Assembly: GCA_965371225.1 (NCBI GenBank)
Contig: CBDUXP010000025.1
Span: forward strand, 1 to 53,948
Origin: CBDUXP01 sp965371225 [NCBI: uncultured bacterium]
Lineage (GTDB): Bacteria; Abyssobacteria; SURF-5; CBDUXP01
Length of the DNA: 53,948 nt
Direction: 5' to 3'
This document shows positions 18,676 to 40,800 of this stretch, piece by piece; position 1 is the stretch's first letter, and every line of letters starts with the position of its first letter. Both the position numbers and the translations under genes were made by a program. A model generated the notes under the pieces. That model saw only the letters and a program-made list of their open reading frames with translations. It had not been told where the DNA came from and searched no databases.

Positions 18676-20115
18676 TTACTCGCTACTCGGCTCCCACTGC
18701 GCGGCGAGCCGCTGCGCTTTGGCCAATTCCGCGGGGCTGAGCATTTCGAGCACCGTCTTCACGGCGTCGACGGCTTTCCGGTCGCCATTGACCGCCGCCA
18801 GGCTCAGCCACATGTGGGCGTTGACGCCATCCTGCCGCACCCCCTCGCCGATGGCGAAGGAGATGCCCAGATTGAACTGGGAGGGCTGGTAGCCCTGTTG
18901 CGCGGCGCGGCGGTACCAGCGGACGGCTTCTGCATGGTCCTGCTTCACGCCTTCCGCTTCGTCATAGGCGACGCCCAGATTGTGCTGCGCGGGCGGATGG
19001 CCCTGCTCGGCCGCGCGCCGATACCACTCTGCGGCTTCCGCATGGTCCTGGGGTACGCCCCGGCCGTTGTCATACGCCACGCCCAGGTTGTGCTGCGCGG
19101 GTGGATGACCCTGCGCGGCCGCGCGCCGGTACCAGGTGATGGCCTCGGCCTGGTCCACCGCGACACCCTCGCCCTGCTCGTACGCGACGGCCAGGTTGTG
19201 TTGCGCGGCGGTGTGGCCCTGGGTGGCGGCGCGGTGATACCACTTGGCCGATTCCGCCACGTCCTGCGGGACGCCCCGGCCGGTGTCGTACGCGATGCCT
19301 AGGTTGTACTGGGCCGACGCGTGGCCCTGGTCCGCGGCCATGCGGAACCACGTGACCGCCTTCGCATAGTCCACGGCGATGCCTTCGCCGATGGCATAGG
19401 ACACGCCCAGGTTGTGCTGGGCATTGGCATGCCCTTGCTCACCGGCGCGGCGGTACCACTCCACGGCGGCCACATGATCCACGGGCACGCCTTCGCCCTG
19501 GTCATACGCTACCGCCAAGCTGTACTGGGCCCGCTCGTGGCCCTGGTCGGCGGCGCGGCGATACCACTTGACCGCCTCCGCATCGTCGACGGGCACGCCT
19601 TCACCGATATCGTAGGAGACCGCCAGGTTGTACTGCGCCCCGGAATGATTCTGGTCGGCGGCGCGGCGGTACCAGCGGACCGCTTCCTTGTGGTCTACGG
19701 ACACGCCCTCACCCTGGTCGTAGGCCACCGCCAAGTTGTACTGCGCGGGCGCATGATCCTTGTCGGCGGCGCGGCGGTACCAGACGGCCGCTTCGGCATG
19801 GTCCGTGGGCACGCCCTCGCCGCTGTCATAGGCCACGGCCAGATTGTGCTGCGCCGGCGCGTAGCCCTGCTCCGCGGCCTGGCGGTACCAGGCAACGGCC
19901 TGGGCGGAGTCCTGCGGGACGCCTTCGCCGCTCTCGAACATGGAGCCCAGGAAGTACTGCGCCTTGGGGTCCCCGGCCTCCGCCAGGGGCGCCCATTCCG
20001 CCAGCGCAACCGCATAGTCGTCGCGCAAATAGGCCGCGACGCCCGTTTCGTAATCTGCAAAGGCCGGCGCCTGCCACAGCAGCGCCACACAGCTTGCCAC
20101 GAGAATTCTCTTCAT
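18676..20115 (-). CDS. Secreted Sel1-repeat (TPR-like) protein, 11 repeats
   Basis: 479 residues. A signal peptide (MKRILVASCVALLWQAPAFA) is followed by a lead-in and 11 Sel1-like repeats of 36 residues (pattern AQ-NLAVAYD-GEGV--D-AEAV-WYRRAA-QGH), then a short C-terminal cap ending PAELAKAQRLAAQWEP. Sel1 proteins are alpha-solenoid scaffolds, often periplasmic and used in signalling or envelope complexes; the partner is unknown. Repeats are evenly spaced (108 bases) and very similar, suggesting recent internal amplification. A TATAAT box (complement of 20162-20167) lies 46 bases upstream. It has no operon partner. Confidence 0.9.
   Translation of the reverse strand: MKRILVASCVALLWQAPAFADYETGVAAYLRDDYAVALAEWAPLAEAGDPKAQYFLGSMFESGEGVPQDSAQAVAWYRQAAEQGYAPAQHNLAVAYDSGEGVPTDHAEAAVWYRRAADKDHAPAQYNLAVAYDQGEGVSVDHKEAVRWYRRAADQNHSGAQYNLAVSYDIGEGVPVDDAEAVKWYRRAADQGHERAQYSLAVAYDQGEGVPVDHVAAVEWYRRAGEQGHANAQHNLGVSYAIGEGIAVDYAKAVTWFRMAADQGHASAQYNLGIAYDTGRGVPQDVAESAKWYHRAATQGHTAAQHNLAVAYEQGEGVAVDQAEAITWYRRAAAQGHPPAQHNLGVAYDNGRGVPQDHAEAAEWYRRAAEQGHPPAQHNLGVAYDEAEGVKQDHAEAVRWYRRAAQQGYQPSQFNLGISFAIGEGVRQDGVNAHMWLSLAAVNGDRKAVDAVKTVLEMLSPAELAKAQRLAAQWEPSSE
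18780..19970 (-). repeat. 108-bp coding tandem repeat array (11 units)
   Basis: The DNA of the Sel1 gene repeats with a 108-base period in frame. Units share blocks such as GCGCGGCGGTACCA (reading WYRR) and GTTGTGCTGCGC or GTTGTACTGCGC (reading AQHNL or AQYNL). This is a coding repeat, not CRISPR, but it may recombine and change the repeat number. Confidence 0.8.
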
Positions 20116-23413: not shown

Positions 23414-23884
23414 CTATGCGGCGCCTCCGGGTTCCCCGCCGCCGTCCGCGTCGGTAAGGTCCACCAGCTCCTCCCCCGATTCGGAGACGAACACCAAGTG
23501 GAAGGGCAGCCCACGCTCCTGCCACGCGGGCGCGGCGGTGCGCCAGGCGCGCAGCAGCTTCCACGCGATGTTCTTGCGCGCGTTCCAGAGCGTGTCCGCG
23601 TCTTGGAGAAACAGGACGTAGCCCTTCGTGGTCGGCTGCGTTTCTTCCAACTGCATGAGGCAGTACTGGAGCGACACCCAGTTTTCCGCGAAGTAGTGCG
23701 GGAGGTGCAGTTTGCGCTTGAGCAGTTGGAGCAGGCGCCGCTCGGTGCGCACCTTGCCGCCGGGCAGGGCGAAGACGATGAGCCCCTCTTCCGTGAGTTG
23801 CTTTCGGAGCGCGCGTTCCTGGGTGCGTGTCGCGAAGTGCACGCAATCCCAACGCACTTGCAGGAGGTCCCCCAGTTGTAGCAT
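23414..23884 (-). CDS. Barstar-like (RNase inhibitor fold) protein
   Basis: 156 residues. The middle shows the barstar pattern: a beta strand with HFATRTQERALRKQL, then LKLPHYFAENWVSLQYCL resembling the barnase-binding helix (YFGxNWDAL) of barstar, and a final strand FHLVFVSES. The acidic Asp in the helix is replaced by Val-Ser, so it may not bind barnase the usual way. There is no barnase-like toxin gene beside it. It may be cytosolic and part of stress or phage-linked biology; unknown. Confidence 0.7.
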   Translation of the reverse strand: MLQLGDLLQVRWDCVHFATRTQERALRKQLTEEGLIVFALPGGKVRTERRLLQLLKRKLHLPHYFAENWVSLQYCLMQLEETQPTTKGYVLFLQDADTLWNARKNIAWKLLRAWRTAAPAWQERGLPFHLVFVSESGEELVDLTDADGGGEPGGAA

Positions 23885-25378: not shown

Positions 25379-28300
25379 ATGCGCTTACGAGAGGGAACGG
25401 TTGGGCAGAAAGCGCTGTTCGGGCTCATCGTCAGCGTCTTTTTCATGACGGTTGGGCTGGTCATGTACGGTACCTCGCAGCGCATGGTGGGGGGCCCGAA
25501 TTGGGGCTTCCTGTGGGTGCCAAGCCGTACACCTCCCGACTTGCTCACGCCTGCCCGTGCGGGCGTGGCGGAGATGGGCCTCGTCTACGGCAGCCGGTGG
25601 GAAATCGTGAACGGGGTTCCGGCGACCGACAGGCATTTCTACGAGGGTCTGGCGCTCCTCGACCGCGAGATCGGCGCGGTCAACGACCTGACGATCCGCC
25701 AACCGGGCGGTGCGCGCCTGGGGCTGACGCTCCCCGTCACGGCGTGGACCTGGGGAGACGCGTGGTTTGTCTTTGGTGAGAACTTCATCATCGGGACGCT
25801 GTTTTTCCTCACCTGCGTCCTATTCTTCCTCCTGCGCCCTTACGAAGCGACAAGCTGGGCGCTCCTCTGCGGCGGAACGTTCTTCGGCGCACAGGTGTTC
25901 AAGGTATTCACCCGGTTACCGGGTGACGACCTTTACAACGTGGTTTCCAGCGGCCTCCTCGGCGTCCTCACCGTCAGCGTGTACCATGGCGTACTCGCGT
26001 TCCCCGTCCCGCATCGGTTGCTGAAGCGGGTTCCCCGTGTGGCAAGCTGGCTCTATGTCGGCGCGCTGCCGGTCGCCGGCCTCTGGCTGGGGTCTACCGT
26101 CGCCCTAGAGCGGGGACGCACCGATCTGTCAGCCCCCTTCGAGGTCGCAGGCTGGGGCCTGGTGCTTCTCGGCGCCTGCCTGTTTGTTGGCCGGCAGTGC
26201 GTCTGGGCCGTCGGCCGCCGGGATCGCACGATCCAACAGCGGGCCCGGCTGCTCGTAGTGGGCTACGCCGCCACCTCTCTCCCGATAGGCAGCTTGATAA
26301 TCCTCCAGGTGGCGTTCGGGCTATTGTCGGCCGTGCCGCAGTCTGTGGTGTTGCCCCTCGTGCTCGCATACCCCCTCGCGCTCGGGTACGCCATGGTGCG
26401 CAACGACATGTTCGACGCGCGGATCGCGGTCCGGCGCGCGGGGGCGTACGCCTTGGCTGGCGCGGCGGCCGCGGGGCTCGTGTGGGCGGGGGCGCAGGTC
26501 CACGCGCTGCTCGCCGCCGCGTGCTTGCTGCCCGTGCTCTACCTGGCGCCGCGGTTCCATGCGCTCGTGACCATGATGCTGTATCCCAAACGGATGCAGT
26601 ATCCCGACCTGCTGCGCAGCATCGGCGACGAGCTGGCGGCGGCGCCGACGCGGCAGGAGGTCGTAGAAATCCTGGCAAGCGCGCCGCAGTTGGTGTGCGA
26701 CACGGACAGCGGCGCCGCGTTCTTCTTGCCCAAGGTGGCGGACGGCGCCGAGCGCATCAGCGTCAGTGGCGAAACGCAGGCGGCGGAGGTGGGGAGCTTG
26801 GCCGACGAACCGCTCATCCACCTACTCGTTGGTGGCCGCCGAGCGATCAAGCGGGAAAGCCTCGGGGTGGATCCCCAGTTCGCGCTTATAAAGGATGAGG
26901 CCGTGGCGTGCATGGATCGTTTGCGCGCGGCGGTGCTGCTGCCCATTGTGAACGGGGGGAAGGTCGTCGGCGGCCTGGCCGTCGGCCCCCATACCAGCGG
27001 CGACGTGTACGACCCCGCTGAACTGGCGGTCCTCAGCCAGCTCGCGCATCAGGCGGCGCAGGCCCTGGATACCGCTGCCCTCCGGGAAGAACGAGACGCA
27101 GGGCAGGCGGTTGGGCGAAGCCCAGAGGCGGATTCCGGGCCGGGCGGATACACAGACGCGGCACCTGCGGCTGACCGGGTAGATGTGCCCGCGGCGATCG
27201 CCGGCGATCGGTACGTGGTCAAGCGGTGGCTGGGCGAAGGCGCGTACAAACGGGTGTATCTCGCCCACGATCAGGTGCTCGGCCGCGACGTGGCGCTCGC
27301 GCTGCTGAAGATGGACGTGTTGGAGATGGACGCCGCCAGTTGGATGCAGCGCGAGGCCCGTACCGTGGCCCAACTGGGAGAACACCCCAACATCGTGCCG
27401 GTGTACGACGTTGGCGAGGCCGGCGGCCAGCTCTACGTCACTAGCCAGTTCCTCCCGGGCGGGTCGGTGGCGGAGTTACTGGCGCAGTCCGGGGGTGCGC
27501 CCCTGCCGCTGGAGCAGGCGCTCCGGATCGGGCAGGACGTGTGCGCGGCGCTCGAACTCGCGCACGCGAATGGGATCCTGCACGGCGATCTCCGACCGCG
27601 CAACGTGCTGCTCACCTCGAGCCAGACCGCTAAGCTCTGCGATTTCAGCGTGGAGCGGCCCCTCGGCCACCCGGGCGCGGCGGACAGGGAGCCGGCGGCC
27701 GGCACCGCCGCCTATCTGCCGCCGGAGCACTACACGGGCCAGGAGCTGGACGCGCGCAGCGACCTGTACGGGTTCGGCGTGATGCTCTACGAGATGCTGA
27801 CCGGCCGGTTGCCGTTCACCGGCGCCGATGCCAGCAGCGTCATCGCCCAACACATCTACAATCCCCCGCCGCTCCCGACGATCTCCAACCCCGCGCTCCC
27901 CGCCGCGCTCAGCGACCTGACCCTGGCGTTGCTCGCCAAGGACCCCGCCGCGCGCCCCGCATCGGCAGCCGAGGTTTCCGCTGCGCTCGCCGCCATCGCC
28001 CCGGCGCGGGCGCCGTATGCGGCCCACGACGCGACCGTACCTGTGGACGTGGCCGATGCCGTGCCCGACGCGATCACGGGCGACCGGTACGTGGTCAAAG
28101 GCTGGCTGGGGGAGGGGGCGTTTAAGCGCGTGTATCTGGCGTACGACACGATGCTTGACCGCGACGTGGCGCTCGCGCTGGTGAAGATGGAAGTGCTGGA
28201 CGAGAGCGGGCGGCAGCGGTTGCGCCGGGAACTGCGCAGCATGGGCCGCCTCGGGGATCACCAGCACATCGTGACGGTGCACGACGTGGGCGAGGCGGAC

Positions 28301-31300
28301 GGGCAGACGTACCTCATCAGCCAGTACATGGCGGGCGGCGCGGTCTCCGATGTACTGGACCGGACGGACCAGGCCGGGTTGCCGCTGAAGCAGGCTCTGC
28401 GTATCGGAGTGGACGTCTGTCGCGCGCTGGAGCACGCACACGCGTACGGGATCATCCACCGGGATCTCAAGCCCGGCAATGTGTGGCTGACGGGGGAGGC
28501 GACGGCGGCGCAGGTCTCGGGACCGGAAGGCGCGCACGCGATGCTGGGCGATTTCGGGCTGGCGGCGGTGGCGGACCAGTCGCGCCTGACGAAGGCGGGG
28601 CAGATCATGGGCACGGCGGCGTACATGGCGCCGGAGCAGGCGCGCGGCGCGGACCCGGACGCGCGCACCGACCTGTACGCCCTCGGCGTGATGCTATACG
28701 AAATGACCACCGGCCGCGTGCCCTTTGCGGGCGGCGATATCGCGAGCATCATCGCGCAGCACCTGCACAACCCGCCGGTGCCACCCATCACGCACACGCC
28801 CACGCTGCCGCCCTCGCTGAACGCGCTCATCCTCGCGCTCCTGGTGAAGGAACCCGCCGCGCGCATGCAGACCGCCACCGACGTGCGCACGCGGCTTGAG
28901 GCCATCCTCGCCGAGCCGATGCCGAGTGGCGTGCTCCACGAGGCCCACATCAGGACCACGGCCATGTCCATACCGGCCACCTCTGCCCCGACCGAATTGC
29001 TCGTGGGGCGCGAGACCGAACTGGCGCGCGCGCAGGTGTTGCTCGGCGACGCGCTCGCAGGCCAGGGGAAGCTACTCCTGCTCGCGGGGGAACCGGGCAT
29101 CGGGAAGACGCGGCTCGCCACCGAATGCGCGCAGGCCGCGGCGCAGCGGGGCGCGCGCGTGCTGTGGGGCCGGTGTTATGAAGGCGAGGGGGCCCCGGCG
29201 TACTGGCCCTGGGTACAGATTCTGCGGACCTACGTGGTCGAGCGGGACGCCGACCTGCTGCGCGCCGAGTTGGGCGCCGGCGCGGCGCACGTGGCGCAGA
29301 TGGTCTCCGACGTGCAGGCGAAACTGCCCGAGGTCGAATCCGCGCCCGAATTGGATGCCGGCGCCGGCCAGTTTCTCCTGTTCGACAGCGTGGTGCGCTT
29401 TCTCAAGAACGCCGCCATGGCGCAGCCGCTCGTGCTCATCCTCGACGATTTGCACTGGGCCGATCCGTCCTCGCTGCTGCTCTTGCAGTTCCTCGCGCGC
29501 GCGCTGGCGGACGGGCGGCTGTTCGTGCTGGGCACATACCGGGACGCCGAGGTTGATCGCGACCACCCGCTAGCCGAGGCACTGGGGCAGCTCGTGCGCG
29601 AACCCGTCAGCGAGCGCCTCCACCTGACCGGGCTGTCCGAGGACGCGGTCGCCACACTGATCCAGGCGCAGCGGCGCGAAGGGATCGACGCGGCGCTGGC
29701 CCACACGGTGTACGAGCGCACAGCGGGCAATCCCTTCTTTATTAAGGAAACCCTGCGGCACCTGGAGGAGACGGGCGCGGCGGACGGCGGGGGTGGCGTG
29801 CCCGCAGGGGTGCGAGACGTGATTCGTCTGCGCCTGGCTCGCCTGTCCGAACGCTGCGTGGCGATCCTCACCATGGGCGCCGTCGTGGGCCGCGATTTCG
29901 GGGACGTCGAGGTGGAGGCGGTCAGCGGATTCCCCATGGCAGAGGTGTGGGCCGCGCTCGAAGATGCCGAGCAGGCGGGGTTGATTCGCGAGGTGGGCCA
30001 ACAGGTGAAACGCTGGCGATTCATCCACGCGCTCATCCGTGAAACGCTGTATGACGATCTCGGCCGCGCGCGCCGGGCTGAACTGCACCGGCAGATCGGC
30101 GAAGCGCTCGCCCGCCTGCACGCGGATCACCTGGACCCGTACCTCCCGGTGCTGGCGTTTCACTTTGCCGAAGGGGTGCACGCCGGCGCGGACGTGGATC
30201 AGGCGGTGCACTACAACGTCCGTGCCGCCAAGCGCGCCATGGGCCAAACGGCGTTCGACGACGGGGTCGCGCATTTCCGGCGGGCCCTCGAGACGCAGCA
30301 AGCCGCCGCGGCTCCGGACGAGGCGCTGCGGTGCCAGCTGTACGTGTGGCTGGGGTACGCCTTGACGGCCGTGAACCAGACCACCGAGGCCATGGACGCG
30401 CTCTCGCAAGCGATCGCGTTGGCGCGCAAGCATGGGCTGGTCAAGCCGTTCGCCGATGCGGCGTTCCTGTATAGCAGTTTACGCACGTCCTACGCCGTGC
30501 TCGACGAAGAAGTGGTGGGGCTCGTGGAAGAAGGCTTGCGTCTGGTGGGGGATCGCCCCAGCCCGGAGCACGCCATGCTCCTGGCGCAACTGTCCATCTG
30601 TCTATCCAATGCCGGTCGCGAGCCGGACCGGGCGACGAGCCTGAGTGAGGATGCGCTCGACATGGCCCGGGAGCAAGGGGATTCGCAGGCGCTGCTGCAC
30701 GCGTTGGGGAGCCGACTCGAATCCGCCCAGATCGTCCCCGCCGAGCGGGCGGCACTGGCCGGGGAGATGGCGGCGGTAGGCCGGCGTATCAACCGGCCCG
30801 AGTGGCTGGGGTTGGCGCTCATGCGCCGCGCCACTGCCGGACTGGAGCTGGGCGATCGCGACACGTTCGGTCGCGACGTGCGCGAATTAGTGGAGTTGGT
30901 CGAGCGGGTGCCGTGGGCGCGGAACCAATGGAACCTCGAAGTCGCCCGCGCGGTGGACGCGGTGCTGGATGGCCGCTTTAGCGATGCTGCGGCGCACCGC
31001 AGCGCGGCGCTGAAGGCTGGCCGGCGGTATCGCGAGAAGAACGCGATTCAGACGTTCTATACCCAGGAATTTCTGTTCAATCATGTGCGGGGGACGTTGC
31101 CGGACCTGGGCGACATCATCCGCCAAGCGGCGTCGGAGGAGCTGTACAGGTTCGGGGTGCGCCTGTCGGTAGGCCTGTTGCACGTGGCCGAAGGCGACAT
31201 GGCCGCTGCGCGGGCGGAGTGGGAGCGCTTGGCGGGGCACGAGTTCGCCGACTTGCCGGAGGATCGCGTGAAGAGCACGTGGTTATCCGGCATGGCCGAG

Positions 31301-34300
31301 ATCGCGGTCGCGCTGGAGGATGCCCCGCGTGCGCGCCTGCTCTATGACCTGTTGACTCCCTACGCGGACCTGACGATCACCATGGGCGGCGGCAGCGCGT
31401 GCATGGGGTCCACGCAACGGTACCTCGGACTGCTCGCCGGGTATCTCGAGCGGTGGGGTGAGGCTGAAGCGCATTTCGAGGCGGCCATCGAGCTGAACGC
31501 ACGCCTGCGGGCGCGACCGTTCGTGGCGCACACGCAGTACGTGTACGCGCGCATGCTGCTCGCGCGCGGCGACGCGGGGGACCAGGATAAGGCGCGCGAT
31601 CTCCTCGCCGCCGCCGCCGCGACCGCCGACGAGCTGGGTATGCCCCGGCTACTCCGCGACGCCCGTGCCGCTCTGCCTTCCGGCCCCGGGGTGGCCGGCA
31701 GGCCGGAACCGGAGGCCGGACCGGGCGGCGCCGAAGATTCCGGGTGGGCCGGATCTGCAGGATTCGTGGGCCGCGATGCTGAACTGGCGCGCGCGCGGGC
31801 AGCCCTGACGGAAGCGGTACAGGGCCAGGGGCAGGTGCTGCTCCTCGTGGGCGAACCGGGAATCGGAAAGACCCGGCTGGCGACCGAGTGCGCGGCGGCG
31901 GCGGCGCACTCTGGCGCGCGGGTCCTGTGGGGCCGGTGTTTCGAGGGCGAGGGGGCGCCGGCGTTCTGGCCGTGGGTCCAAATCCTGCGCCGGTATGTGG
32001 CAGACGCGGATGCGCAACGCTTGCGCGCGGACTTAGGTGACGGGGCCCCGCACGTGGCGCAGATGGTGTCGGACATTCGCGCGGCGCTGCCGGAGATCGC
32101 GGATGCACCACCGCTGGAAGGCGACGCCGCACGCTTCTTGCTGTTCGATGCGGTATCGCGATTTCTCAAGAACGCGGCGGCCGTACAACCGTTGATGCTG
32201 GTGCTCGACGACTTGCACTGGGCCGACACATCGTCCCTGCTGCTGTTGCAGTTTCTGGCGGGAGAGCTGGCCGACGCGCCGCTGTTCATCCTGGGGACGT
32301 ACCGCGACGTGGAGGTGGACAAGGACCATCCCCTGGCCGAAGCGATGGGGCGGCTCGTGCGGGAGCCCGTCACCCGGCGCATACACCTGGGCGGCCTGTC
32401 CGAGGCGGCCGTCGGGGCCTTAGTAGAGGGCGACGACCCGGCCTTTGCGCATGCCGTGTACGCGCAGACGGAGGGGAACCCGTTCTTTATCCAGGAGACG
32501 GTGCGGCACCTGCAGGAGTCCGGCGGCAGCATCGCGGACATGGGAGTGCCTGCAGGCGTGCGCGACGTGATCCGCCTGCGCGTGGCGCGGTTGCCCGATG
32601 CCTGCCGCGAGCTGTTGACGATCGGGGCCGTCGTGGGCCGCGAGTGCGAGCGGGCGGTGCTCCTGAGCGTGCGCCAATGGACGGAGGCTCAGCTGCTCGA
32701 CGTCGCGGCCGTCGCCACGCGCGCCGGGCTGATTGAGGATACCGACAGCCGGCCTGCGTCGTACCGCTTTGTACACGCGCTTATCCGCGAGACGATCTAC
32801 GATGATCTGCAACCATCCGCCCGCGCACAACTGCACCGGGAGGTGGGGAACGCGCTGGAGAGCCTCCACGCGAACAACCTCGAACCGCACCTCCCCGCCC
32901 TCGCCCATCACTGTTCCGAAGCGCTCCCCGCCGGTGTCGATGCAGAGAAGGCGATCGCCTTCAGTGTCCGGGCCGCGGAGCGCGCGACGGCGCAGATGGC
33001 ATTCGAGGCCGCCGTCATGCATTACGAGCGCGCCCTGCACGTCCTGCAGCGGCAGGTATCCGGGGACCCCCTGCAGCAGTGCACCCTCATGCTTGAGCTG
33101 AGCCGGGCGCTGATCAACGCGGGCGACGTCGAACGCGTTGAGGAGACCCTCTTCCAGACGTGCGACCTCGCCCGCCGCCTCCCGGCGCCTGAATTGTTCG
33201 CTGAAGCGATCTTTCTGCTCAGGCATGTGCGGTACGTGTACGGCGCCGCCGACGAGGCGCTTGTCGAGCTGATCGAAGAAGGGTTGGGCCTGCTGCCCGA
33301 GGAGGACAGTGCCGCACGCGCTAGCCTCTTGGCACAGTTGTCACGCACGCTCTATGGGGTCCCGGATACCGAGCACCGCCAGGTTACGCTCAGCGCGGAC
33401 GCCCTGGCGATGGCGCGCCGCGTCGAGGATGCGCAGGCCTTGACGCATGCACTCCGCAGTCGTCACAACCTGATCGCACTCGACCCGACGGAACGCGCGG
33501 CGCTGGCCTCGGAACTTGTGGATTTGGCCACGGAAAAGGGGCGCACTGACTGGCTGGCGATGGGGTTGTCCATCCGCTCCGGCGTGCGGGTGAGACTTGG
33601 GGACGTCACCGGCTTTGAGGCGGACGTGAACGCGCTCATCGCGTTGGCGGACAAGATGCCGCTGCCCGAGAATGTCTACGTGGCGCAGGGCGCGCAAGTC
33701 GTCCGCGCCATTCTGTTTGGGCACTTTGCCGACGCAGAACAGCACGCCGTGCAGGCCCTTGAAAGCGGCCGAAACGTCCAGGTGACAAACGCGGGTCAGA
33801 CGTTTGCCGGCCACATCGGCATCCTGCGTTGGCTCCAGGGGCGGCTGCCCGAAGTGGAAAGCAGCATGCCGCAACCGGGCGACCGCGACGGCGCGCTGCC
33901 TATCTACCGCTTGTACCGGGCGCTCGTGAATCTCGAGCTGGGACGCCAGGGCGAGGCGCAGGCTGAATGGGATGCGTTGGCCGCGCAGGACTTCGCGGAC
34001 CTGCCCCACGATTGGAACCGGCCGACCCTCTTGGCACTCGCTACCGAAGTGGCTGCTGCCCTCGACGACGGACCACGCGCCGCGCACCTGTACGCCATGT
34101 TGTTGCCGCTGGCTGACGAGACGATCACACAGGGGACCGGTAATTTCTGTTTGGGTTCCGCGGAACATTGGCTTGGCGTGCTCGCTGCCCTGTTGGACCG
34201 ATGGGCGGAGGCGACCGCCCACTTCGAGGCGGCGGGGGAGATGAACGCACGCATGCGGGCGCGGCCGTTCGTGGCGCGGACGCAGTATGCGTACGCGCGC

Positions 34301-34453
34301 ATGCTGCTCGCGCGCGGTGACGCCGGGGACCAGGACAAGGCGCGGGGGCTGCTGACCGAAGCGGCCGCGACGGCCGAGGAGCTGGGCATGGCGACGCTGC
34401 AGCGCGACGCCCGTGCCGGCCTGGATGGCGCGAACGCGCCGGAGCAGGGGTAG
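25379..34453 (+). CDS. Giant membrane signalling protein: GAF, two Ser/Thr kinase domains, two AAA-TPR modules
   Basis: 3,024 residues. Order: membrane helix (14-34); a PDZ-like stretch (about 45-130); about seven helices (134-395); GAF (about 409-573); kinase 1 (608-870), degenerate: HGD at 735-737 for HRD and DFS at 755-757 for DFG, but Asp737 and Asn742 kept; kinase 2 (900-1178), intact HRD 1027-1029 and DFG 1058-1060; AAA/STAND ATPase 1 (Walker A GEPGIGKT 1237-1244, Walker B LDD 1355-1357); TPR region (about 1600-2095); a linker; AAA 2 (Walker A 2158-2165, Walker B near 2276); second TPR region to the end. The two AAA-TPR halves are duplicates 921 residues apart. Kinase-AAA-TPR proteins with the DVALAL-K beta-3 pattern are a known broad family; the double set with a membrane/GAF front is not one I know. 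Targets are unknown. Confidence 0.88.
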   Translation: MRLREGTVGQKALFGLIVSVFFMTVGLVMYGTSQRMVGGPNWGFLWVPSRTPPDLLTPARAGVAEMGLVYGSRWEIVNGVPATDRHFYEGLALLDREIGAVNDLTIRQPGGARLGLTLPVTAWTWGDAWFVFGENFIIGTLFFLTCVLFFLLRPYEATSWALLCGGTFFGAQVFKVFTRLPGDDLYNVVSSGLLGVLTVSVYHGVLAFPVPHRLLKRVPRVASWLYVGALPVAGLWLGSTVALERGRTDLSAPFEVAGWGLVLLGACLFVGRQCVWAVGRRDRTIQQRARLLVVGYAATSLPIGSLIILQVAFGLLSAVPQSVVLPLVLAYPLALGYAMVRNDMFDARIAVRRAGAYALAGAAAAGLVWAGAQVHALLAAACLLPVLYLAPRFHALVTMMLYPKRMQYPDLLRSIGDELAAAPTRQEVVEILASAPQLVCDTDSGAAFFLPKVADGAERISVSGETQAAEVGSLADEPLIHLLVGGRRAIKRESLGVDPQFALIKDEAVACMDRLRAAVLLPIVNGGKVVGGLAVGPHTSGDVYDPAELAVLSQLAHQAAQALDTAALREERDAGQAVGRSPEADSGPGGYTDAAPAADRVDVPAAIAGDRYVVKRWLGEGAYKRVYLAHDQVLGRDVALALLKMDVLEMDAASWMQREARTVAQLGEHPNIVPVYDVGEAGGQLYVTSQFLPGGSVAELLAQSGGAPLPLEQALRIGQDVCAALELAHANGILHGDLRPRNVLLTSSQTAKLCDFSVERPLGHPGAADREPAAGTAAYLPPEHYTGQELDARSDLYGFGVMLYEMLTGRLPFTGADASSVIAQHIYNPPPLPTISNPALPAALSDLTLALLAKDPAARPASAAEVSAALAAIAPARAPYAAHDATVPVDVADAVPDAITGDRYVVKGWLGEGAFKRVYLAYDTMLDRDVALALVKMEVLDESGRQRLRRELRSMGRLGDHQHIVTVHDVGEADGQTYLISQYMAGGAVSDVLDRTDQAGLPLKQALRIGVDVCRALEHAHAYGIIHRDLKPGNVWLTGEATAAQVSGPEGAHAMLGDFGLAAVADQSRLTKAGQIMGTAAYMAPEQARGADPDARTDLYALGVMLYEMTTGRVPFAGGDIASIIAQHLHNPPVPPITHTPTLPPSLNALILALLVKEPAARMQTATDVRTRLEAILAEPMPSGVLHEAHIRTTAMSIPATSAPTELLVGRETELARAQVLLGDALAGQGKLLLLAGEPGIGKTRLATECAQAAAQRGARVLWGRCYEGEGAPAYWPWVQILRTYVVERDADLLRAELGAGAAHVAQMVSDVQAKLPEVESAPELDAGAGQFLLFDSVVRFLKNAAMAQPLVLILDDLHWADPSSLLLLQFLARALADGRLFVLGTYRDAEVDRDHPLAEALGQLVREPVSERLHLTGLSEDAVATLIQAQRREGIDAALAHTVYERTAGNPFFIKETLRHLEETGAADGGGGVPAGVRDVIRLRLARLSERCVAILTMGAVVGRDFGDVEVEAVSGFPMAEVWAALEDAEQAGLIREVGQQVKRWRFIHALIRETLYDDLGRARRAELHRQIGEALARLHADHLDPYLPVLAFHFAEGVHAGADVDQAVHYNVRAAKRAMGQTAFDDGVAHFRRALETQQAAAAPDEALRCQLYVWLGYALTAVNQTTEAMDALSQAIALARKHGLVKPFADAAFLYSSLRTSYAVLDEEVVGLVEEGLRLVGDRPSPEHAMLLAQLSICLSNAGREPDRATSLSEDALDMAREQGDSQALLHALGSRLESAQIVPAERAALAGEMAAVGRRINRPEWLGLALMRRATAGLELGDRDTFGRDVRELVELVERVPWARNQWNLEVARAVDAVLDGRFSDAAAHRSAALKAGRRYREKNAIQTFYTQEFLFNHVRGTLPDLGDIIRQAASEELYRFGVRLSVGLLHVAEGDMAAARAEWERLAGHEFADLPEDRVKSTWLSGMAEIAVALEDAPRARLLYDLLTPYADLTITMGGGSACMGSTQRYLGLLAGYLERWGEAEAHFEAAIELNARLRARPFVAHTQYVYARMLLARGDAGDQDKARDLLAAAAATADELGMPRLLRDARAALPSGPGVAGRPEPEAGPGGAEDSGWAGSAGFVGRDAELARARAALTEAVQGQGQVLLLVGEPGIGKTRLATECAAAAAHSGARVLWGRCFEGEGAPAFWPWVQILRRYVADADAQRLRADLGDGAPHVAQMVSDIRAALPEIADAPPLEGDAARFLLFDAVSRFLKNAAAVQPLMLVLDDLHWADTSSLLLLQFLAGELADAPLFILGTYRDVEVDKDHPLAEAMGRLVREPVTRRIHLGGLSEAAVGALVEGDDPAFAHAVYAQTEGNPFFIQETVRHLQESGGSIADMGVPAGVRDVIRLRVARLPDACRELLTIGAVVGRECERAVLLSVRQWTEAQLLDVAAVATRAGLIEDTDSRPASYRFVHALIRETIYDDLQPSARAQLHREVGNALESLHANNLEPHLPALAHHCSEALPAGVDAEKAIAFSVRAAERATAQMAFEAAVMHYERALHVLQRQVSGDPLQQCTLMLELSRALINAGDVERVEETLFQTCDLARRLPAPELFAEAIFLLRHVRYVYGAADEALVELIEEGLGLLPEEDSAARASLLAQLSRTLYGVPDTEHRQVTLSADALAMARRVEDAQALTHALRSRHNLIALDPTERAALASELVDLATEKGRTDWLAMGLSIRSGVRVRLGDVTGFEADVNALIALADKMPLPENVYVAQGAQVVRAILFGHFADAEQHAVQALESGRNVQVTNAGQTFAGHIGILRWLQGRLPEVESSMPQPGDRDGALPIYRLYRALVNLELGRQGEAQAEWDALAAQDFADLPHDWNRPTLLALATEVAAALDDGPRAAHLYAMLLPLADETITQGTGNFCLGSAEHWLGVLAALLDRWAEATAHFEAAGEMNARMRARPFVARTQYAYARMLLARGDAGDQDKARGLLTEAAATAEELGMATLQRDARAGLDGANAPEQG

Positions 34454-34777
34454 GCCGGGCCAGGGCCCCACGGGCTCGCGGAGCCAGCGGCGATGCGGGG
34501 CGCACTGAACGCACCCCCCCCCGCAGACGAGGGGTATGGTCTGGGCTCAATGGTGATGCATAACCAACGTATGGCGTCTCTGTAGTCCTTTCTGCAAACT
34601 GGCGTCCCAGCAAGCTGGCGTGGGGTAGAGGCCGCTGTTATGTGTGTATAGAGGTGGCGTTGCTGCGCCATTTCGCAGGGGAACCGGGAACGGACAGGTG
34701 GGACAGGATCCATCGGCGGGGAGTGGCGGCGACGCGCGTCTCCGTTGGGGTGTCGCGCAGCTCCACGAGAGAACCAC
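34454..34777 (+). other. Intergenic region between giant kinase and histidine kinase genes
   Basis: 324 bases without a convincing gene. It holds a short hairpin after the kinase stop (GGCTC-GCG-GAGCC, 34473-34485), a run of nine C at 34514-34522, and less G+C-rich sequence from 34530 to 34660 with TATAGA (34648-34653) that may contain the promoter of the next gene. No family-level similarity is seen in any frame. Confidence 0.5.
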
Positions 34778-37063
34778 GTGATCGCCTCCGCCGTTCTGGT
34801 GGGCGCGACGCTTCTGCTGGTGGGGGCCGCAGTCCTGGCCGTGCGCTTGGCGGCGACCACACGCTCGCGCGCTTGGGTTCTGCTGGCGGTGGGTATCGTG
34901 CTCTTGGTGGCCCGGGATGTGGTGACCATGACGCAGAATCTGTGGGGCCTCCGCGCGGAGACGGATGGCCTGGCGGTGATGACCCTGCTGCTCTCCGGCT
35001 GTCTGCTGGCGGGGCTGCTGTATGTCCGCCGGGAGTTCGCGGCCCAGACTGACGCGACGCCTCGACGCACCGCGCGCTTCGGCGCGCCGGTCCCGGGGGT
35101 GGGATGGCTGTTGCCGCTGCTGGCGGCGGGCGCGGTCCTGGTGGGCACGTTCACCCTGTGGTGGGACATGCGCACGAACGCGCAGTCGATCCTGGTTGGG
35201 ACCACACACCGGGGCGCCGGCGAAGCTTCGCAAAAGTTTTCCGACCAGTTGGAGACGGATATTCGGGCGCTGGACCGGATGGCGCGGCGGTGGGCACGGC
35301 GCGGGCAGACGCCGCCGGATGAGTGGGTCGCGGACGCGCAGCGGTACCTGACGGATACGCCGAGCCTCCAGGCGCTGGCGGTCGTGCGGGGCGAGGGGCG
35401 GGTGCAACGCTTCGTCACGGTGCGGTCCGGCGCGGCGGGCCGGGACCGTGCGGCGGCGGTGCTCGTGGCGCGCGAGACGACGCTCGCGGGTCCTGCGCCC
35501 GGGACGCCAGGTGGGCTCAGCGTCCCGGTCCACTTACAACTCACGGCGTCGGGGCTGTGGACGGCATTGCCGTTGCTCAATCAAGACGAGTTGGATGGCT
35601 ACCTCCTGGGGCTGTTCGATGTGCAGTGGCTCATCGACGACTTGTTGCCCCGGACGGATGCGCTAACGCACAGTCTGGTCGCGTACGTCCGGGGCGAGGA
35701 ACTGGGGCGCACGGGCCCGATCAGTGCGCCGCCCAACGCTTGGCACCAGTCGGCGAGTTTTCGGGTCGGGGACACCCCCTTCCGCGTCGAGGTGTGGCCG
35801 ACGGCGGTGGCGCTGGCCGCGTCGCGGTCGAATCGGGCCTTTCTCGTGCTGGTGAGCGGGTGTTTGGCCGCCGCTTTGGTGGGGACCATCGCCCAGCTTG
35901 CGCAAACCGCGCGGCGCCGGACCGAGGCCATCGAGCGAAACACTAACGCATTGCGCGAGAGCGAGGCCGGCCTGGCCCGGGCGCAGGAAATCGCGAACAT
36001 GGGAAGCTGGGAGCTATCCATTTCCGACGGTACGGCCACCTGGTCGGCGCAGCTCTACAAGATCTGCGGCGTGGCGCCGGAAACCTTTCGCCCGACGCTG
36101 GAAAATTTCTTGCCGCTCGTGCACTCGGACGATCGCGGCCGGGTCCGACGTACGATCGAGGACACCATCCGGTCGCACGAGCCCTTCACACTCGACTACC
36201 GCCTGGTGCGGCCCGACGGGGAAGAGCGCTGGGCGCACGCGCAGGCCGAGGCGGTGTTGGACGCGGAGGGGGCCGTGGTGTCCATACGCGGCATCACGCA
36301 GGACGTGACCGGCCAACGCCGCATGCAGGAGCGCATCCAGCGCGCGCAGAAGCTGGAGAGCCTGGAGATTCTGGCCGGCGGTGTCGCCCACGATTTCAAC
36401 AACCTGCTCGTGGGCATCCTTGGCGGCGCGGACCTGGCCCTGTCCACCCTCGAGCCGGAGGCGCCGGGCCGCGCCGATCTGGAGCTGGTCAAGGTGGCCG
36501 CCCAGCGCGCCTCCGACCTGACCACTCAGATGCTGGCGTACTCCGGGAAGGGGACCTTCGTGGTGGAACCCGTGGACCTGTCGCGGCTCGTGCAGGAAAT
36601 GGCACGCCTGCTGGAAGTCTCCATCGCCAGCCGCGTGACGCTGGCGTACGAGTACGCGCCGAATTTGCCCAAGGTCCGGGGCGACGCCGCGCAGTTGCGC
36701 CAGGTGGTCCTCAATTTGGTGCTCAACGCTTCGGAGGCTAGCGCGGACCGGGGCGGCTTCATCACGCTGCGTACGGGCACGATGCAAGCGGACCGCGCCT
36801 ACCTGGCCGACACGTATCTGGAGGACGACGTGGCGCCTGGAGCGTACGTCTACCTGGAAGTCACCGATCGGGGGGAGGGCATGGACGAGGACACGCGGGT
36901 GCGCATCTTCGATCCGTTCTTCACCACGAAGTTCCAGGGACGCGGACTCGGCCTGGCGGCGGTGCTCGGCATCGTCCGCAGCCATCACGGCGCCGTGCGC
37001 GTCGATTCCGTGCCGGGCCACGGCACCACCCTTCGGGTGCTCCTCCCCAGCGAACCGGCCTGA
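34778..37063 (+). CDS. Membrane PAS histidine kinase
   Basis: 761 residues from GTG 34778 (TTG 34745 is an alternative with no ribosome site). Three N-terminal helices, a fourth (about 110-133), a CHASE-like extracytoplasmic region (about 135-355), a fifth helix, a PAS domain with PAC (about 385-510), a HisKA domain with the phospho-acceptor H538 in LAGGVAHDFNNLL, and an HATPase domain (N-box LVLNASEA, DRGEGMDED, GRGLGLAAVLGIV). No receiver domain is fused and no response regulator is nearby. The HDFNNLL H-box is that of hybrid-type kinases. It lies in the cluster of large signalling genes. Confidence 0.9.
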   Translation: MIASAVLVGATLLLVGAAVLAVRLAATTRSRAWVLLAVGIVLLVARDVVTMTQNLWGLRAETDGLAVMTLLLSGCLLAGLLYVRREFAAQTDATPRRTARFGAPVPGVGWLLPLLAAGAVLVGTFTLWWDMRTNAQSILVGTTHRGAGEASQKFSDQLETDIRALDRMARRWARRGQTPPDEWVADAQRYLTDTPSLQALAVVRGEGRVQRFVTVRSGAAGRDRAAAVLVARETTLAGPAPGTPGGLSVPVHLQLTASGLWTALPLLNQDELDGYLLGLFDVQWLIDDLLPRTDALTHSLVAYVRGEELGRTGPISAPPNAWHQSASFRVGDTPFRVEVWPTAVALAASRSNRAFLVLVSGCLAAALVGTIAQLAQTARRRTEAIERNTNALRESEAGLARAQEIANMGSWELSISDGTATWSAQLYKICGVAPETFRPTLENFLPLVHSDDRGRVRRTIEDTIRSHEPFTLDYRLVRPDGEERWAHAQAEAVLDAEGAVVSIRGITQDVTGQRRMQERIQRAQKLESLEILAGGVAHDFNNLLVGILGGADLALSTLEPEAPGRADLELVKVAAQRASDLTTQMLAYSGKGTFVVEPVDLSRLVQEMARLLEVSIASRVTLAYEYAPNLPKVRGDAAQLRQVVLNLVLNASEASADRGGFITLRTGTMQADRAYLADTYLEDDVAPGAYVYLEVTDRGEGMDEDTRVRIFDPFFTTKFQGRGLGLAAVLGIVRSHHGAVRVDSVPGHGTTLRVLLPSEPA

Positions 37064-37138: not shown

Positions 37139-37864
37139 ATGCGCATTCCTCCGCCCCTGGCGGCGCTGACTCTGCTCGCACTTGCAGCGGCATGTGAGGG
37201 GTTGCCTATGGACCGGAGCGTGCTGGAGGGGTGGTCCGGGCTCGGCGCACCCGCGCTGACCCGCGCCGACATTGCCGCGGGGTTGCGCGAGGCCTTGCGC
37301 GTAGGCACGCAGCGGGCGGTGGCGCGCGTCGGGCGGGCGGACGGGTTCAACGCCGATCCCGACATTCACATTCCGTTGCCCGAGAAGCTGGCGCGCGCGC
37401 AGGTGGCGCTGCGGCGCGTGGGCGCGTCGGGGTTGGCGGACGATCTGGAGTTGCGGCTCAACCGGGCGGCGGAGGCCGCGGCGCCGGAAGCGCAGCGCCT
37501 CTTCTGGGACGCCATCGCGCAGCTCACGTGGGCGGACGCGGAGCGCATCTACCGCGGGCCCGACGACGCGGCGACGCAGTACTTCCGGCGGACGACGAGC
37601 GGGCCGCTGATGGACGTGATGCGCCCGGTGGTGGAGGGGCAGCTTGCGCGGGCGGGCGCGGTGCAGGCCTACGACCGGATGATGGGGCGGTACCGCGCGC
37701 TGCCGCTGGTGCCGGACATCAAAGCGAACCTTACCGAGTACGCGCTGGAGCAAACGCTGGCCGGGTTGTTTCTGTACTTGGCGCGCGAAGAAGCCGCCAT
37801 CCGCCGCGATCCCGCCAAGCGCACCACGGCGCTGCTCCGCCGCGTTTTCGGCGCCGGCGCCTAA
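37139..37864 (+). CDS. DUF4197 family lipoprotein
   Basis: 241 residues. A lipoprotein signal ends in LAAAC (Cys19). The mature part follows the DUF4197 pattern: IAAGLREALRVGTQRAV, DIHIPLPEKLARAQVALRRVG, FRRTTSGPLMDVMRPVVEGQLARAG and YALEQTLAGLFLYLAREEAAIRRDP. The function is not known; the family is found in envelopes of Gram-negative bacteria. Its stop codon overlaps that of the convergent cyclase gene. Confidence 0.9.
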   Translation: MRIPPPLAALTLLALAAACEGLPMDRSVLEGWSGLGAPALTRADIAAGLREALRVGTQRAVARVGRADGFNADPDIHIPLPEKLARAQVALRRVGASGLADDLELRLNRAAEAAAPEAQRLFWDAIAQLTWADAERIYRGPDDAATQYFRRTTSGPLMDVMRPVVEGQLARAGAVQAYDRMMGRYRALPLVPDIKANLTEYALEQTLAGLFLYLAREEAAIRRDPAKRTTALLRRVFGAGA

Positions 37865-40800
37865 TCAGCCGCGACGGCCTCAACCGGTTCCCCCTCCGGC
37901 AGGCCGGCCTTGAGGTAGGCCGCGACGACGCGGGCGCGCACCGCCGGATCGCGGTAGGGCAGCCTTCCGGCCATGCCGGCGACCGTCCAGTCGGGACTGA
38001 GGCGCAGCAAATCCTGCGCCGCTTCATGGGCCGCGGCCAGCTCCCCCATTTCCGCGTAAGTGCGGGCCAGGAGCGCGTGCCCGCGTACGAAATTGGGGTA
38101 CTGCGTCACGAACTCGCGGAGGTGGACGATTGCTTCCTCGAACCGCCGGAGCAGCGCGTACGTCGCGCCGTACACGAAGCCCAGCATCGCCCGCCGGCTC
38201 GGATCGAGGCGCACAGCCCGGTCCAGCAGTTCCAGGGCCTCGTCGTAGCGCTCAACCCCGGCGAAGGTATGCGCCACGAACTGGAGCACCGCCGGGTTGC
38301 GGGGCTCCAGCGCATAGGCGCGCTCGGCCGCCGCCTCCGCACGATCGAAGTCCTGGGCGAACAGGGAAATGGCGCCCACGACCGCGTGGGGATACCCCAG
38401 GTGTGGCTCCAGCGCCATGGCCTGCTCCGCGCGTTCCCGCGCCCGCGGCAGCACCGCGGGGTCTCGCGTCCATTGGTTGGCCCATGCCTCTATACCGGTG
38501 CGCGCGAGCAACGCATGGGCCTCGGCGAGCGTCGGGTCGCGTGCCACGGCCTCGTGCAGGAACGTGCGCGCCTGCGCGACGCTCTCCGCGGTGCCAATCC
38601 AGTACGCGGCCACACCGCGCAGGTAAAGGTCGTACGCCTCCGGGTCCGCAGTCGGAATGCGCGTGAGCTGCGCGCGCTCCTCCGGCGTCAGGGCCACGCG
38701 CAGTTCGGCCACGATGGCCTGCGTCACTTCGTCCTGCAGGGCAAAGATGTCGGTCAGCTCCCGGTCGTACCGTTCCGACCAGAGATGGTGGCCCGTGGCC
38801 CCGTCGACGAGCTGCGCGGTGATGCGCACGCGGTTTCCCGCCTTGCGCACGCTGCCTTCGAGCACGTACTGCACGTTCAGGTCGCGGGCCACGTCTTGGA
38901 CTTTGGTGGGTTTCCCCTTGTAGGTGAACACCGAGTTGCGCGCGATCACGAGCAGGCCGCTGATCTTGCTCAAGTCCGTAATGAGGTCCTCGGTCATCCC
39001 GTCGGCGAAGTACTCCTGCTCCGGGTCGCCGCTCATGTTCGCGAACGGCAAGACCGCGATGGCCGGCTTCTCGGCAGGCGCCGCGGCCGCCGGTTCGCCC
39101 TCGGGCAGGCCGGCCCTGCGCAGCGCATTGGTGGAGCGCAGCGTGTCGTGGGGCTCCTTGAACGGAATGCGTCTGCCGAATTCCGCGACCGTGAAGCCGG
39201 GACTGATACGCAGGATCTCAGCTACTGCTGCCTGCGCGTTCGCCATGTCGCCCGTCTCCGCGTACGCGCTCGCCAGAAACAAGTGCGCACCGATGAGGTC
39301 GGGGCTCCGGTTGATCGCTGCCTTCAGCAGGCCGATGCCCTCCTCGAAGCGTTCGAGGCTGACGTGCGCCGCTCCGAGGTAGAAGGTCCGAAATGGATTC
39401 TGGGGATCGAGACGAACGGCGTGCCGAAGGGGAGCGAGGGCCTCGCGGGCCCGACCGCTCATGTAGAGCGCTTCGCCCAGGCTGCCGAGCGCGGCGGCAT
39501 CATTTGGTCCCAGTTCCACGGCCCGCCCCGCGGCCGCCAACCCCTCGTCGTGGCGACCGCTGAACATGTAGACGCGCCCGAGCTGCGCGTGCGCCTGGGG
39601 TAGCGCGGGGTCGAGCGCCACGGCCCGTTCGGCGCTGGCGATGGCGCGCGTCATCACCTTGGGATCGTCGCTCCACTGCGACACCGACTCCAAGAAGTGC
39701 GTTATGGCCAGGCCCCTGTGGGCGAGTGCGAATCCCGGATCGAGTGCGATGGCGCGCTCGAACAATTCCCGCGCGCGAAGCGTGTCCACGCGCGACTGCC
39801 GCAGCACATACGCCTGCGCGCGCAGGTAGAGGTCATACGCGTCCAGGTTGGCTGTCGGCGGCGTCTCGGTGCGGGCGTGTTCGTCCTCCGTCAGCGTTAC
39901 GCGCATCGCGGACACGATCTCCTCGCGCACGTCATCCTGGAGCCCGAAGAGATCGGTCACTGCGCCGTCATAGCGGTCGGACCACAGGTGATGTCCGGTC
40001 GCACCATCCACGAGCTGGGCTGTGATGCGCACCTGATCGCCCATCTTCCGCACGCTGCCTTCCACGATGTACTGCACGTCCAGGTCGCGCGCCACGTCTT
40101 GGACTTTGGTGGGTTTCCCTTTATACGTGAACACCGAGTTGCGCGCGATGACGAGCAGGCCGCTGATCTTCGACAGGTCGGTAATCAGATCCTCTGTCAT
40201 GCCGTCGGCGAAGTACTCCTGCTCCGGATCGCCGCTCATGTTCGCGAACGGCAGCACCGCGATCGCGGGTTTCTCCGCCCCAGCGGCCGGTGCCGGCCAG
40301 TATCGCTCGATCACGACGTCGATGCGTCCCAGCCCCTGATCAGGCAGGCTCAAGCCCCCGAACACTTTGTTGCGCTGTTCTGCTGAGTAGTTCGGCATGA
40401 GCCGGTGGAGCTGTTCCACCGCCCATCGGGCGTTGTCCTGCTCGCCAATCTCCTCGTAAGCCAGGGCCAATGGGAGGTAGACGAACCCCATGTCCGGGAG
40501 GAGGGTGGCGGATCGCCGCAGCTCCCGGGCGGCGTCTTTGTACCGGCCGAGTACCAGGTACGCGGACCCGCGGATGCTGATGCTCCACCGGTCATGAGGA
40601 TCCAGGCGCATGGCCTGTTCCACGGCCGCCAGCGCCTCTTCCCCCCGCCCTTGGCGGCTCAAGGCCATGGCCAGGGATTGATAGCCCCACAGGTTCGGTG
40701 CGATCGCAATGGATTGTCTCGCCATGTCGATGGCCTCATCCACCCGATCCTGAAACTGGTAGTACATAGCCAGTTGCGCTTCCGGGGTTCCCGAGCTGTC

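Follow-up and report, generated by a model that had tools for sequence, protein, structure and literature searches.

Can a single chain with two protein kinases and two AAA-TPR halves be a working receptor if the VAIK lysine is absent from both kinases? The question is raised by one very large gene in the stretch of DNA analysed here, a window of 53,948 nucleotides. We read the gene product as a membrane STAND-kinase in which kinase 2 would catalyse by means of a WNK-like relocated lysine and kinase 1 would be a weakened regulator. We give this reading as a whole a probability of about 57%.

Gene continuity and the membrane front end

The gene is a single ORF that begins with ATG at 25379, ends with its stop at 34453 and contains no internal stop in 3,024 codons. 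The domains of the giant protein are ordered as follows: a PDZ-like segment, about eight membrane helices, GAF, kinase 1, kinase 2, AAA-TPR and again AAA-TPR (Table 1). Pfam recovers one GAF, two Pkinase and two AAA_16 stretches. The initial annotation, made from the sequence alone, had described a receptor of 3,024 residues with a doubled kinase and a doubled AAA-TPR half, and the single ORF and the Pfam domains bear this out. It had also considered that the gene might be a misassembly of two neighbouring genes. This is disfavoured by our results. Internal repeat copies are 70–81% identical in DNA, too diverged for a read-joining error, and the GC content at codon position 3 stays between 0.77 and 0.93 in all 21 blocks of the gene. 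Because of the diverged repeats and the even composition an assembly join is unlikely, and we reject an assembly chimaera. Together with a recent accidental fusion without function, such an origin is highly improbable. It would fit the fact that the full architecture was found in no second genome among the matches listed, but the reading frame is uninterrupted, and an accidental fusion is at odds with motifs kept in each AAA domain and with HRD and DFG kept in kinase 2. The window has no tRNAs, and Rfam at gathering thresholds gave no match in it.

Table 1. Features of the giant gene, with nucleotide positions in the window.
Feature	Position	Strand	Basis
Whole gene, 3,024 aa	25379..34453	+	ORF, composition
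First membrane helix, aa 12-30	25412..25468	+	hydropathy
PDZ-like segment, ~aa 41-125, probably outside membrane	25499..25753	+	co-linear with L065 (PDZ_2)
Membrane region, aa 136-390, seven hydrophobic peaks	25784..26548	+	hydropathy
GAF domain, ~aa 427-564	26657..27070	+	Pfam GAF_2, GAF_3
Kinase 1, aa 604-880, HGD/DLRPRN/DFS	27188..28018	+	Pfam, alignment
Kinase 1 glycine-loop lysine Lys624, position 55	27248..27250	+	alignment
Kinase 1 Ala641 at VAIK-lysine position (72)	27299..27301	+	alignment
Kinase 2, aa 899-1180, HRD/DFG kept	28073..28918	+	Pfam, alignment
Kinase 2 glycine-loop lysine Lys916, position 55	28124..28126	+	alignment
Kinase 2 Ala933 at VAIK-lysine position (72)	28175..28177	+	alignment
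AAA_16 and helical/winged region after it, copy 1, ~aa 1207-1640	28997..30298	+	Pfam, repeats, model
TPR array, copy 1, ~aa 1641-2106	30299..31696	+	repeats; helical repeats in model
AAA_16 and region after it, copy 2, ~aa 2129-2560	31763..33058	+	Pfam, repeats
TPR array, copy 2, ~aa 2561-3015	33059..34423	+	45% identical to copy 1

The membrane/PDZ-like/GAF front end proposed earlier also stands. Hydropathy gives eight peaks of 19 residues within residues 1–400, and Pfam finds GAF_2 over 437–564 (E 2.8e-9) and GAF_3 over 427–564. There is no direct Pfam PDZ match in the giant protein; the PDZ-like segment is recognised through its co-linear alignment with L065, which has PDZ_2 by Pfam at this place (E 2.8e-7). 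Homologues of the front end finish in HisKA/HATPase (L065, L078 and L048) or in a cyclase (L041), and in the relative L063 no output domain was found, Pfam giving a weak PDZ_2 only. Among the matches listed, the front-end query was found in 54 of 301 genomes from the phylum to which G003 belongs (Chloroflexota; G003 is the genome of L003) and in 29 of 198 from that of G011; in many cases the match is confined to the GAF part. In one further locus (L183:1718-5221) a single chain runs from a kinase through a region matching the membrane/GAF front of the giant protein to a cyclase, and a further GAF protein comes after it.

The glycine-loop lysine and the clade that carries it

Kinase 2 had been annotated as intact. 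HRD and DFG are indeed kept in it, but the VAIK lysine is missing (Ala933) and a lysine of the glycine loop is present instead (Lys916). Kinase 1 likewise lacks the beta-3 (VAIK) lysine and has a lysine in the glycine loop. This swap between positions 72 and 55 (PKA numbering) is the point that the initial annotation missed. In the alignment of the clade, Ala, Ser or Gly occupies the VAIK-lysine site and the glycine-loop lysine is the sixth and last residue of GxGxxK. Among the 143 distinct kinase domains that we collected, Lys55 without Lys72 occurs in 28 and Lys72 without Lys55 in 113; in no domain are both lysines present or both absent, and two domains are gapped at one of the two sites. 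One gapped row, L003, in which the chosen start codon falls within the kinase, has Lys55 and Ala72 once the DNA just upstream is translated; the other is the badly degraded kinase 2 of L126. The clade-profile score is at least 377 bits in 27 of the 28 Lys55 rows (L109 has 252) and never exceeds 287 bits in the scorable rows without Lys55, and it is important to note that the profile delimiting the clade includes positions 55 and 72 themselves. A partly independent check on 60 loci found in two later searches gave nine rows above 330 bits, all with Lys55 and no Lys72, and 51 rows that were all the reverse; the 330-bit cut was picked after the gap had been seen, and six of the nine Lys55 rows are new genes, L219-L221 being L125, L122 and L039 again. 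One later genome sample overlapped an earlier one and, apart from G014, consisted of genomes already sampled; another search went over the same genomes as the one before it. Since the Lys55 rows are essentially one clade, the clean count reflects a fixed trait and not repeated coevolution. Linkage to an AAA domain also occurs in kinases that keep Lys72, namely L139 and kinase 1 of L126.

If the VAIK lysine had only slipped three residues along the strand (to Lys644 and Lys936), these would be ordinary Hanks kinases with a shifted strand. An extra lysine is indeed present three residues past position 72 in 24 of the 28 Lys55 rows, but this site varies (A, D, R and N are also found), and the structural models put the lysine just beyond beta-3. 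A slip would moreover demand three residues more before the lysine and four fewer after it. The spacing between Val57 and position 72 is 15 residues in all 28 Lys55 rows, as it is in 109 of the 113 others, and the spacing from position 72 to the alpha-C Glu is 18 in 25 of the 28, against 19 in 102 of the 113 others. An odd offset along a strand points to its opposite face, which also speaks against a slip. We consider it quite improbable. Between the glycine loop and the VAVK lysine the clade profile aligns with the PknB crystal sequence without gaps, Ala falling on that lysine. In the AlphaFold2 models (mean pLDDT 83.9 and 87.3) Lys624 and Lys916 are at the start of beta-2 and Ala641 and Ala933 are inside beta-3. 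We hold it fairly probable that the relocation of the lysine to the glycine loop is functional.

The swap marks a clade of mostly zinc ribbon-kinase-AAA_16-TPR proteins, often with a cyclase, which is found in at least three phyla (Chloroflexota, Myxococcota and Actinomycetota). In the Actinomycetota sample, seven matches from 6 of the 198 genomes score 377–474 bits and the next one among the matches listed scores 284. Twenty family proteins besides that of the window were inspected, five of them truncated by a contig or locus end (L033, L086, L087, L254 and L256). Specifically, a C-terminal match to our home-made cyclase model is present in 13 of the 20, at least two CxxC motifs precede the kinase in 16, and matches to the TPR queries were found in 15. 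Pfam, run on six family proteins, finds the cyclase in three and a double zinc ribbon in four. Both zinc ribbon and cyclase are absent from the giant protein according to Pfam, the cyclase model and the CxxC check. Elsewhere in the window (46329-49793, + strand) a protein of 1,154 aa with the order double zinc ribbon-cyclase-AAA_16-TPR has the modules of the family without the kinase.

Could the family consist of true pseudokinases, which bind ATP or partners without phosphorylating and leave the output to the STAND ATPase, or in the relatives to the cyclase? The usual three-residue rule, given in the cited passages of a 2025 review (PMC12599244), files kinases without the beta-3 lysine as pseudokinases, and the C-terminal cyclase of the 13 relatives would suit such a division of labour. 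However, 22 rows (L109 left out) agree without exception in HRD Asp, catalytic-loop Asn, DFG Asp, alpha-C Glu and APE Glu, which is unexpected if catalysis had been lost. This explanation is in our view unlikely. Bacterial pseudokinase families without the beta-3 lysine do exist according to the same passages, but those described there are unlike the Lys55 clade: they have Arg or a bulky residue in place of the lysine, have lost HRD/DFG, or have beta-2 arginines.

Dependence on a beta-2 lysine was shown for POMK after 2007, in addition to the WNK kinases. According to the cited parts of Kannan et al. 2007 (PMC1821047), no functional ePK family other than WNK lacks Lys72, and WNK catalysis requires the conserved Lys55. 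A 2023 review (PMC10211241) states in its relevant part that mutation of the migrated lysine abolishes the activity of WNK1 and POMK. The window kinases resemble the WNK kinases as described in PMC1821047 in having no VAIK lysine and Lys55 in the glycine loop, and kinase 2 also in keeping HRD and DFG. Position 72 is Ala in the window kinases and Cys in WNK. The best sequence and fold matches of the window kinases and their clade are bacterial (PknB, StkP and PknA). WNK1 is absent from the best 60 matches of the clade profile and reaches a weak E of 0.18 with a 58-residue N-lobe query, and the best 50 matches of the fold search with the tandem kinases are ordinary kinases. We therefore reject WNK by descent, the best sequence and fold matches being PknB and other bacterial kinases, and infer a separate origin of the bacterial swap. 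On this reading the giant protein is WNK-like at one step and not WNK by descent. The balance tips slightly towards an independent invention of WNK-type catalysis by bacteria, in a STAND-linked clade of at least three phyla that here would take the form of a giant membrane receptor with a regulatory kinase copy and two STAND modules driving assembly. No bacterial family of Hanks kinases with the Lys55 swap came up in the literature searched (titles and starts of abstracts); the kinase atlas of O'Boyle 2025 may contain the clade. If the bacterial swap clade is real, it offers an independent test of how this 'essential' residue can change place, and rules built on VAIK risk labelling active bacterial kinases as dead.

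Unequal kinases and duplicated AAA-TPR halves

Copy 1 and copy 2 are 53% identical in the kinases, 61% in the AAA domains and 45% in the TPR arrays, in line with the duplicated AAA-TPR half noticed earlier. The two window kinases are sisters in a tree built from 87 kinase domains; their support of 91/83 falls short of the 95/80 that the tree tool sets as its mark. A second tree, of 47 AAA domains, took in the 45 best-scoring among domains longer than 380 aa, and there the window AAA copies are sisters with support 100/100. Each pair therefore looks like the product of an internal duplication. A joining of two unrelated kinases is rejected by the sister placement, though at 91/83. The giant protein is thus a putative case of receptor growth through doubling of whole modules.

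The two kinases differ in their divergence, with a branch length of 0.73 for kinase 1 and 0.41 for kinase 2 in the kinase tree. Kinase 1 has HGD at 735–737, DLRPRN, and DFS at 755–757. It keeps the loop lysine, the alpha-C Glu, the catalytic Asp, the Asn, the DFG Asp and an APE-type Glu. The alignment here agrees with the initial annotation, which had reported HGD and DFS beside a kept Asp and Asn, and adds the DFG Asp. In the relatives changes occur singly at the same sites, with HLD in L109 and Asn for the catalytic-loop Lys in L008. HGD, Arg for the catalytic-loop Lys and DFS are found in no other Lys55 row of the alignment, and kinase 1 has all three. Tandem kinases of other kinds provide a comparison: among seven tandem types one copy has a changed HRD in four (the window, L126, L179 and L181) and both copies are intact in three (L128, L150-L153 and L180). 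Decay of one copy is therefore common and not a rule. In the other tandem types the usual lysine is kept wherever it is readable.

These observations bear on whether both kinases are active, so that the duplication would double the output and HGD and DFS would be tolerated in kinase 1. The catalytic residues retained in kinase 1, the single changes in L109 and L008 and the three tandem types with two intact copies are consistent with this. On the other hand, the co-occurrence of three changes is unique to kinase 1 among the Lys55 rows, its branch is longer, and one copy has a changed HRD in the majority of the tandem types, the window included. We regard activity of both kinases as rather doubtful. 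A divergent kinase 1 beside a more conserved kinase 2 is supported; that kinase 1 regulates kinase 2, as proposed earlier, is argued by analogy, and we give a regulatory role of kinase 1 an even chance. The model of the tandem kinases has a pTM of 0.55 and does not establish a contact between kinase 1 and kinase 2. The giant protein offers one chain for a direct assay of how a duplicated kinase has diverged beside its more conserved sister.

Both AAA-TPR halves contain, in the same order, Walker A (1237/2158), DDLHWAD (1353/2274), GTYRD (1384/2305) and GNPF (1450/2366). We take these to be the STAND motif set of Walker A, Walker B (DDLHWAD), sensor-1 Arg (GTYRD) and GxP (GNPF). Judging by these motifs, each AAA half seems capable of binding ATP. 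In a fold comparison the kinase 2-AAA-TPR model aligned with 6mfv, a solved STAND-TPR protein, over 735 columns (E 8.5e-14), but the two superpose loosely, with a TM of 0.45 by target length and an rmsd of 12.2. The STAND-like character that the initial annotation gave to the AAA-TPR halves is upheld by the motifs in both and by this loose match for the model of one half. The motifs place the giant protein among the STAND-TPR proteins, and the fold does so more loosely.

A possible mechanism can be outlined as follows. The giant protein would be derived from the bacterial zinc ribbon-kinase-STAND ATPase-TPR(-cyclase) family. Its loop lysine may grip ATP as Lys233 does in WNK1, and because of this kinase 2 would be active through Lys916 although it fails the VAIK check. 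Kinase 1, with HGD, DLRPRN and DFS, would be slow or inactive and could serve kinase 2 as a regulator or a scaffold. The membrane front and the TPR arrays would supply the signals for the kinases. The switch would be a clustering of the two STAND halves, driven by ATP, which brings kinase 2 domains together for trans phosphorylation.

Similar architectures and known systems

The full architecture was seen neither in 30 confirmed loci nor among the matches listed from 1,780 overlapping genome look-ups. Architecture was read directly in the loci retrieved; for the remaining matches it was estimated from the query range and the length of the frame. Because these searches with protein parts scored only the best 2–25 candidates per genome, they do not prove that the full architecture is absent. 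The initial annotation had called the architecture unfamiliar, and this is true of the full combination but not of its parts, since kinase-AAA-TPR singles, tandem kinases and AAA-TPR-AAA occur separately. Matches spanning a tandem kinase were found in at least 5 of 282 genomes in the phylum of G001 and in at least 4 of 301 in the phylum of G003, with at most the best four candidates per genome considered. A row of G249, which spans both query kinases over 783 bases and is too short for two, was excluded. The closest architecture among the matches listed is that of L177 (2255-7633, 1,792 aa), in which the first kinase is canonical, the second is badly degraded and an AAA_16 is present; it has been reached from another kinase family. 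AAA-TPR-AAA is found in a single frame in L188, and adjacent AAA-TPR genes in L184, L018 and L029. Thus each half of the architecture has been reached elsewhere. Tandem kinases are followed by WD40 repeats in L178:999-5639 and by HEAT repeats in L179:1166-5686. L182 and L150-L153 encode double kinases of 740–746 aa with motifs intact in both copies; they are nearly identical and come from four genomes in the phylum of G003.

With the zinc ribbon-kinase-AAA_16-TPR(-cyclase) proteins the giant protein shares the order of kinase, STAND-type AAA and TPR as well as Lys55 without Lys72. It differs from them in lacking zinc ribbon and cyclase, in its membrane/GAF front and in the doubling of kinase and AAA-TPR. 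The nearest curated model is TIGR03903 (TOMM_kin_cyc), for which the giant protein scores 495.8, below the cut-off of 705.75, and the C-terminal cyclase of TOMM_kin_cyc is absent from the giant protein. In the tandem Hanks kinases of L177 and L181 there are likewise two kinases, one of them with a changed HRD (HGD in the second kinase of L181), and L177 also has AAA; unlike the giant protein, they keep the VAIK lysine where it is readable, and no doubled AAA-TPR or front-end match was found in them. In JAK-type pseudokinase-kinase tandems a divergent kinase stands right before a conserved one. The giant protein is like these in kinase order, but the origin is unrelated. CP1 pseudokinases (kinase and COG3899 ATPase) also join a kinase to a predicted ATPase, which we take as the same broad kind. 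According to the cited passages of PMC12599244 they are found in cyanobacteria and proteobacteria and, unlike the giant protein, have no membrane segments, and about 40% of them are pseudokinases through scattered motif changes. The two CP1 examples listed there have KILR and VLIK at the VAIK site, the comparison covering this site and not the glycine loop.

Two further assignments were tried. Membership of the PASTA kinases is rejected: with the PASTA kinase model NF033483 the giant protein scores 498.3 against a cut-off of 450, but the score passes only through two kinase stretches, the best of which covers model positions 4–292 of 563, and no PASTA domains are among the 19 Pfam families of the giant protein at E 0.001. 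Whole-protein scores of NF033483 on tandem kinases are a possible source of wrong names. In PADLOC, with PD-T4-6 and MAD6 among the kinase families, the best stretches of the 25 families listed, of 33, all lie in the kinase region, and three other proteins of the window that were compared had no match. An anti-phage defence system seems improbable, the matches being those of generic kinases.

None of the 1,047 matching plasmid records covers 80% of kinase 2-AAA-TPR. No close relatives of the host were found: the best match of the phosphoglycerate mutase is 55% over residues 8–397 (22 genomes) and that of MTHFR is 56% (148 genomes). A PAS-HATPase protein (34745-37063, + strand) is encoded immediately downstream of the giant gene and may be a partner or a coincidence. 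A protein of 1,426 aa (37861-42141, − strand) has weak cyclase, FlgO-like and many TPR matches. The window also encodes two Sel1-repeat-rich proteins (18676-20115, − strand, and 43233-44636, + strand, with Pfam bits of 383 and 194) and a barstar-like inhibitor (23414-23884, − strand).
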